DNA from: Oligoflexia bacterium
Lineage (GTDB): Bacteria > Bdellovibrionota_G > JANQFH01
Length of the DNA stretch: 64,000 bases
Reading direction: 5' to 3'
NCBI GenBank assembly: GCA_028277945.1
Contig: JANQFH010000068.1
Span: 1 to 64,000, forward strand
Part shown: positions 60,835-63,517 of the stretch, piece by piece
Numbering within the stretch: position 1 is the first letter of the stretch
Layout: every line of letters starts with the position of its first letter
The notes under the pieces: generated by a model
Databases searched by the model: none
What the model was told of the DNA's origin: nothing
Seen by the model: only the letters and a program-made list of their open reading frames with translations
Made by a program: the position numbers and the translations under genes

Positions 60835-62187
60835 ATGGAAGCTCCATTGATTGCCGGCAGCCCATCGTTTGGCAGCATCACCGAGAAGGTCAGCAGTATT
60901 GTCGAGGCAAAGTTCTCTCTGGTCTGGTTGCTCTGGTTTGGTTTTATCTCCTCCATAGCCCTAGTTTTCTTTGGTGCCATTGGTTACGTCTTTTGGGAGG
61001 GTATTGGAGTTTGGGGCAACAACGTCCCCAACGGTTGGGGATGGCCCATTGTCAACTTTGTCTTTTGGGTGGGTATTGGCCATGCAGGCACTTTGATCTC
61101 AGCCATTCTCTTTCTCTTTCGCCAGCGTTGGCGTACCTCAATCAACCGCTCCGCTGAGGCGATGACCATCTTTGCCGTGATCTGTGCTGGCATCTTTCCC
61201 GGTATCCATGTGGGTCGGATCTGGGTCTCCTATTGGATGTTCCCGCTGCCCAACCAAATGGATATGTGGCCCAACTTCCGCAGTCCGTTGATGTGGGATA
61301 TCTTTGCTGTGGGTTCCTATTTTACCGTCTCTCTCCTCTTTTGGTATGTCGGCTTGATTCCTGATTTTGGTACGCTGCGGGATCGAGCCAAGAGCAAGAT
61401 CCGCCAGTTCATCTACGGCATCCTTGCTGTGGGTTGGAATGGCGGCAATCGTCAGTGGCGCCACTATGAGAAAGCCTATCTCTTGCTTGCTGGGCTAGCG
61501 ACGCCATTAGTGCTCTCGGTGCACACGGTGGTTAGCTTTGACTTTGCCACCAGTGTCATTCCTGGCTGGCACACAACCATTTTCCCACCTTACTTTGTCG
61601 CCGGCGCAATCTTTTCTGGCTTTGCCATGGTCATGACCTTGCTCGTCATCGTACGTAAGCTTTACTCTCTTGAGCACATCATCACCATGCGCCATTTAGA
61701 GAACATGAACAAGATCATGTTGGTAACCGGCATGATGGTTGGCTATGCCTATGGCTGTGAGTTTTTTATCGCCTGGTACAGCGGTAACGATTATGAGATG
61801 GCGGCGTTTAAAAACCGCGCCTTTGGCCACTATGCCTGGGGCTATTGGATTATGGTGAGCTGCAATGTATTGGTGCCACAACTCTTCTGGTTTAAGCGGT
61901 TGCGTACTAGTGTGCCGGTGATGTTTGTTGCTTCCATCCTGATCAACGTTGGTATGTGGTTTGAGCGCTTTGTCATCATTATCAGCTCGCTGTCGCAAGA
62001 CTTTCTACCGGGTAGTTGGGGCTTCTTCAAACCAACGCTTTGGGATATTCTCATCCTCGTTGGCTCCTTTGGTCTCTTTTTTACGCTGTTTACGCTGTTT
62101 GCACGGTTTCTACCGCTCATTTCCATGGCTGAAGTCAAAGGCGTGCTACCCCAGGCAGATCCGCATCATCAAGGAGAGTCTACATGA
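60835..62187 (+). CDS. actC: Alternative complex III quinol-binding NrfD-like subunit
   Basis: This 450-residue inner-membrane protein has about ten helices and the NrfD/PsrC fold of Act[49 protein letters not shown] and [18 protein letters not shown] are characteristic. It contributes a quinol-binding site. The ATG follows the actB stop without a gap, and the stop overlaps actD by 4 bases. Confidence 0.95.
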
Positions 62188-62729
62188 GTGCGAGAGAACA
62201 GAGCAGTTATGGTTTGTTGGCACAGTTTGATGGGGCAGCGTCGCTTTTGCAGGCAGCCAAGGCGCTGCATGAGGCTGGTTACAAACGGTTTGACTGCCAC
62301 TCTGCCTTTCCCATACACGGGATGGACCGCGCCATGGGGCTGCAGCAGTCTAAGCTTGGCTGGATTGTTTTGCTGGGTGGTTTTAGTGGTGCCGCGGGTG
62401 GTATGCTGTTGCAATGGTGGACCAGTGCGATCGATTACCCTCTGGTGATCTCAGGCAAACCGCTCTTTAGCTTTCAGGCCTTTGTCCCCATTACCTTTGA
62501 GTTGACGATTTTGTTTGCTGCCTTTGGTGCTGTGTTTGGCATGTTGGCATTGAACCGTCTCCCGCGTTTGCACCAGGAGCTGTTTAATTCAGGCCGATTT
62601 AAACAGGCATCGGATGATGGTTTTTTTATCAGCGTGCAGGCTGGAGATCCGCAATTTGATGAAGCGGGTACGAAGAGCTTGTTAAGACAACTCGGCGCCC
62701 AACATATAGAAGTCATCGAGAGGGGCTGA
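62184..62729 (+). CDS. actD: Alternative complex III subunit D (DUF3341)
   Basis: This 181-residue membrane protein has two helices (about 56-78 and 97-118) and the DUF3341 pattern: [38 protein letters not shown] at the start and [29 protein letters not shown] at the end. It is a structural subunit of the complex. Its end is followed by a 182-base gap before actE, unlike the tight spacing elsewhere in the operon. Confidence 0.93.
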
Positions 62730-62774
62730 TCCTTGGAAAAGCGAAATAAGAGTTTAAGTTGAAACCGAAAGTAA

Positions 62775-62917
62775 AGACATACGCAAATCTTTCTGATGGG
62801 GCGTCCCGCAGGCGTTGCGATCCATGCATACATAGTCCGCGACGCCGAGGGCCGAGCAGCGCGAGGCGGCGGAACGCCGAGCGACTGCGTCCCCAGCAGA
62901 AAGATTTGCGTATGTCT
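62775..62917. repeat. 143-bp inverted-repeat element over the actE start
   Basis: The 21 bases at 62775-62795 (AGACATACGCAAATCTTTCT and one more G) recur as an exact reverse complement at 62897-62917. The symmetry continues imperfectly a few bases inward (TGGGG on the left, CCCCAG on the right). The inner part is GC-rich with many GCCG/CGGC runs, unlike the neighbouring genes. The element fills most of the only large gap in the act operon, and the actE start codon at 62912 lies inside the right arm. It could be a small palindromic or MITE-like insertion, or a structured RNA in the operon transcript. Confidence 0.8.
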
Positions 62918-63517
62918 ATCCTATTGTTTTTCCTAGCTCTTATAGTTGGCTGCTACCAAGGCAGGCCGTCCGAGAAGCCGCCGATCCATCTCAATCCCAA
63001 TATGGACAACCAGTCCAAGTACAAGGCGCAGAGTCATAACCCCTTCTTTGCCAACGGCGCGACCATGCGTCAGCCTGTGGCAGGTACGGTAGCACGCGGC
63101 TATCTGCGTGAGGACGATGCCTTCTACCGTGGTGTGGACGCAGCAGGTGCTTTTGTCAAAAAAGCGCCGCTTAAACTAACGGCGGCAACCCTCACGCGTG
63201 GACAGCAGCGCTACAACATTTACTGCACCCCCTGCCATGGCCAGGTCGGTGATGGTAAGGGGATCATCGTTAAGCGAGGGCTATTACCCCCACCGACCTT
63301 TCATGATCCGCGACTTCGCGGTGAATCTGACGGTTACTTTTTTAATGCGATTACCAACGGTATTCGTAACATGCAGGCCTATCGCCACCAGATTCCTGTG
63401 CAAGATCGTTGGGCTATTGTCCATTATATACGGGCGTTGCAGCGCAGTCAGAATGCCAGCTTGGAGGATGTGCCGGCAGCCATGCACACCGCATTGCAAA
63501 CCGAGGGATCGCCATGA
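62912..63517 (+). CDS. actE: Alternative complex III cytochrome c subunit E (lipoprotein)
   Basis: This 201-residue subunit is a lipoprotein (MSILLFFLALIVGC, lipobox ending in Cys14) with one heme site CTPCH (YCTPCHGQVGDGKG) and a class I cytochrome fold: VKRGLLPPPTFHDPRLR, AITNGIRNMQAY with the Met ligand, RWAIVHYIRALQ. The frame is open upstream to a TTG at 62759, but that would put about 50 residues, encoded by the inverted-repeat element, before the signal peptide. The ATG at 62912 is therefore used although no ribosome binding site is evident. The stop overlaps actF by 4 bases. Confidence 0.88.
   Translation: MSILLFFLALIVGCYQGRPSEKPPIHLNPNMDNQSKYKAQSHNPFFANGATMRQPVAGTVARGYLREDDAFYRGVDAAGAFVKKAPLKLTAATLTRGQQRYNIYCTPCHGQVGDGKGIIVKRGLLPPPTFHDPRLRGESDGYFFNAITNGIRNMQAYRHQIPVQDRWAIVHYIRALQRSQNASLEDVPAAMHTALQTEGSP

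Follow-up and report, generated by a model that had tools for sequence, protein, structure and literature searches.

The actD-actE junction examined here lies in an Oligoflexia bacterium, within a window of 64,000 nucleotides (the whole stretch of DNA that was analyzed). It belongs to a respiratory operon that the sequence-only reading had described as tightly packed with a single large gap, and this description agrees with the gene positions, as the operon genes abut or overlap except between actD and actE. An inverted-repeat element occupies this gap, located between actD and the signal peptide of actE. The features of the locus are listed below.

62184..62729, + strand: actD, the upstream gene (Pfam PF11821 ActD, E 3.2e-67)
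62759..63517, + strand: actE open frame from TTG 62759, running through the element; cytochrome c domain
62912..63517, + strand: actE if begun at the right-arm ATG; lipoprotein signal core MSILLFFLALIVGC
62775..62795, + strand: left arm, 21 nt; outer ~15 nt found at this locus alone
62897..62917, + strand: right arm, 21 nt; the actE frame reads Q K D L R M S; contains ATG 62912
62790..62902, + strand: core of the repeat family F1, the part alignable with other copies; 83% to the copy at C9
62797..62895, + strand: inner structure, a stem (62797-62801/62891-62895) around two hairpin branches (62802-62854 and 62856-62888)

The arms had been claimed to form a perfect 21-base inverted repeat around a GC-rich interior. 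Both points were borne out: 62775-62795 and 62897-62917 are complementary at 21 of 21 bases, and the stem extends to 27 bp if one mismatch is allowed, with a GC content of 71% in the spacer inside these longer arms. The element, whose bare core measures about 113 bp, is the strongest inverted repeat of the 64-kb window. RNA folding, suggested earlier as a check, yielded -90.8 kcal/mol and a z-score of -8.9, and none of 200 shuffled sequences folded as well. The inner structure is based on the consensus fold of two copies and on pair changes across copies.

A DNA search of the same genome detected one other copy, the 83% match at C9, and a covariance model built from this copy and the window copy revealed six full copies (129-181 bits) in addition to a weak truncated one. 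Model, pattern and DNA searches covered the whole genome, and an inverted-repeat scan covered 870 kb of the 2.86 Mb in stretches chosen partly around known matches. Core sequence and structure are common to several loci, which identifies the actE element as one copy of a GC-rich palindromic repeat dispersed in this genome, F1, 145 bp in size. Its other five full copies are located at unrelated genes and appear intergenic. The sequence-only reading had named a lack of further copies as evidence against an insertion, and the genome holds the opposite. Outside this genome, a DNA search of 57 other genomes detected no F1, the matches being short, with E above 0.001, and read as chance; exact core patterns had no match in GTDB contigs and IMG/VR, and plasmid and phage records gave no second host. 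Across the copies, paired positions covary at 27 of 50 pairs, where shuffling gave a mean of 8. The alignment was fitted to the structure, and its counts are inflated, one of the seven rows being another copy read on the reverse strand.

Evidence for insertion comes from relatives; the searches included tblastn of ActE and a scan of GTDB contigs for ActC relatives. Measured from the actD stop to the actE lipobox cysteine, the spacing is 221 nt here, compared with a median of 62 and at most 169 across 35 loci of relatives. Two of these loci are one and the same contig, and two genomes of the same phylum are included. Because actD and actE are closer together in all 35 loci, the element is interpreted as an insertion, most likely specific to this lineage as judged from these spacings. 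The proposed comparison with act operons lacking the element thus favors the earlier view, and the same sequence at this site in distant relatives, which would have pointed to a conserved RNA structure, has too short a gap to occupy in these loci. On reading this one site, no target site duplication is visible directly outside the window arms. A regulatory RNA conserved in the act operon might also show a strong fold and paired changes. This explanation is very improbable, since the other copies stand at unrelated genes, the actD-actE site leaves no room for it in relatives, and Rfam covariance models gave no match to the element up to an E-value of 1.

The arms behave differently from the core. 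Core homology of the window copy stops at 62790 and 62902, and the outer ~15 arm bases share 4-6 of 16 positions with the arms of other F1 copies, which is chance level; among the other five copies, outer arm bases are shared at 11-14 of 16. The genome check for further copies of the arms, also suggested earlier, returned none within two mismatches and leaves them unique to the actE site. A match with three mismatches (C68:44204) and an arm-like match (C59:346k), both in apparent coding sequence, were set aside as chance. When right arms were dealt at random among the copies, the observed complementarity was reached in 13 of 10,000 trials, a test limited by the number of only six copies. The idea of an inserted palindromic element therefore needs amendment: further genome copies and the longer actD-actE gap speak for it, but it is the core that is repeated and not the arms, and F1, normally a module of a larger composite, stands alone here.

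In each of the five remaining full copies, F1 forms a module within a larger MITE-like composite and is preceded by the hairpin F2 in four of five cases (with about 50 bp between) and by F3 in the fifth. Like MITEs, these composites end in AT-rich sequence arranged in inverted order. Five motifs taken from composite ends and spacers were searched for around the window copy and none was found, so that this copy is a bare core without a composite. Like prokaryotic MITEs, F1 is short, noncoding and dispersed, and its composites have common inverted outer ends; unlike them, the window copy lacks those ends and has local arms. Terminal inverted repeats common to copies are accordingly present in the composites and missing from the window copy. 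An ordinary MITE insertion with arms that diverged after landing would suit a family found in such composites, but it would have to account for the absence of any composite end or spacer motif and for arms at chance level around a core up to 83% identical to other copies; we regard it as improbable.

Further hairpin families, F3, F4 and F5, are present in this genome, and one F3 pattern searched against IMG/VR gave no second host. F2 is a GC-rich palindrome of about 200 bp whose arms are conserved; it often directly precedes F1, and in its copies at C61 and C68 the loop is replaced by another palindrome.

F2 copies: C9:46095-46300, C47:40777-40979, C59:296967-297165, C72:19549-19743, C61:172702-172873 and C68:30384-30571

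F4 is a palindrome of about 100 bp at about 20 places, often followed by another palindrome, F5. The core of some F4 copies appears to be flipped with respect to the ends; one F4 copy lies just before the apparent start of valS. Apparent chimeras, in which the end of one hairpin family is joined to half of another, occur at C10:298521 and C10:429539-429732. A nested inverted repeat at C59:137232-137345 differs from these GC-rich families in being strongly AT-rich, with a GC fraction of 0.12 in its arm.

Two or three further bare cores were found in a similar state; all are intergenic, and two of these are truncated or weak.

C72:91130: part of F2, with its own 21-bp arms beginning and ending with CTAG
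C10:365836: truncated F1, core match 18/19 bases
C10:365699: F3, with shorter arms

The case at C10:365836 is weaker because its core match is short and a one-sided relative of its arm occurs at C61:333707.

As the window arms are unique to their site yet mutually perfect, we propose a mobile repeat whose arms were rebuilt or borrowed where it landed. We infer the manner of their origin and the effect on expression from these patterns, and we place roughly even confidence in an account in which a mobile palindromic core landed at the start of actE, local DNA served to rebuild its arms, and ActE now starts at a TTG or is reduced. The core, or the tip of a DNA hairpin, would have been captured at the 5′ end of actE. 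A polymerase switching strands on the hairpin would then probably have copied adjacent actE sequence in inverted orientation to give matching local arms, the template switching extending beyond the core into the actE start. Template switching has been reported to create and homogenize hairpin arms, with concerted change on both sides of the stem (PMC8794818, PMC8604942). Against arm rebuilding, arms of about 21 bp recur in several cases, which suggests that their size follows a rule, whereas random strand switching would require none.

A serious rival, of lesser though appreciable probability, is that actE already carried an inverted repeat, such as one formed by the ends of another miniature element, and that the core entered its loop, in which case the arms belong to the recipient. 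REP dimers within longer palindromes are reported from some bacteria (PMC3733652), the CTAG at both ends of the C72:91130 arms is a possible element end, and the arm with a relative at C61 fits as well. On the other hand, no second copy of the window arms exists in the genome, and this reading would require a perfect inverted repeat over a signal-peptide start before the insertion took place. More tentatively, and rather unlikely in our view, GC-rich hairpin tips might be mobile themselves and gain new perfect inverted arms at each landing site, an inverted instead of a direct target copy; the literature was searched for inverted target duplication without a match.

The right arm, said before to supply the actE start codon, does contain ATG 62912 and encodes charged residues that could plausibly begin the ActE signal peptide, but this ATG is probably a poor start, hidden in the stem: in the predicted mRNA its region is paired at 1.00 over -15 to +3, and the region of TTG 62759 is more open, with pairing of 0.72. 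Since the ATG would be buried, ActE is probably made from TTG 62759. According to the folding model, translation from this codon with an N-terminal extension, or a reduced level of ActE, is most likely; the stem in the transcript would hide the ATG, and the TTG start would place about 51 additional arginine-rich residues before the signal peptide core. The frame from 62759 is indeed open across the element, as noted earlier, but this is weak evidence, because the element can be read through in two of its three frames, and a given frame is likewise open in 21% of shuffled versions.

This openness is not beyond chance and was set aside as support for a coding role like that of Rickettsia palindromic elements (RPE). 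F1 resembles RPE in being palindromic, about 150 bp long and open in the frame of the host gene (reviewed in PMC10969869), but differs in that the other five full copies appear intergenic; NCBIfam matches of the ActE frame included no RPE model. With REP/REPIN systems and their RAYT transposases it shares palindromic repeats in a genome with two REP-associated-type tyrosine transposase genes, but F1 has 145 bp instead of 20-40 bp and is not a short repeat flanking a RAYT gene. These Y1 transposase genes are located at C61:13089-13403, with no F-type repeat around it, and at C9:48799-49125, about 2.3 kb from an F2-F1 composite. Yeast mitochondrial GC clusters are likewise GC-rich palindromes that merge and shuffle (PMC4478555); F1 is bacterial and larger, and no homology is claimed.

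Perfectly paired arms that differ wholly between copies of one core are poorly explained by ordinary transposition. If the arms were copied from the landing site, past strand switching could be read from such palindromic repeats, and actE would offer a natural example of a respiratory gene whose start was rewritten by a hairpin.
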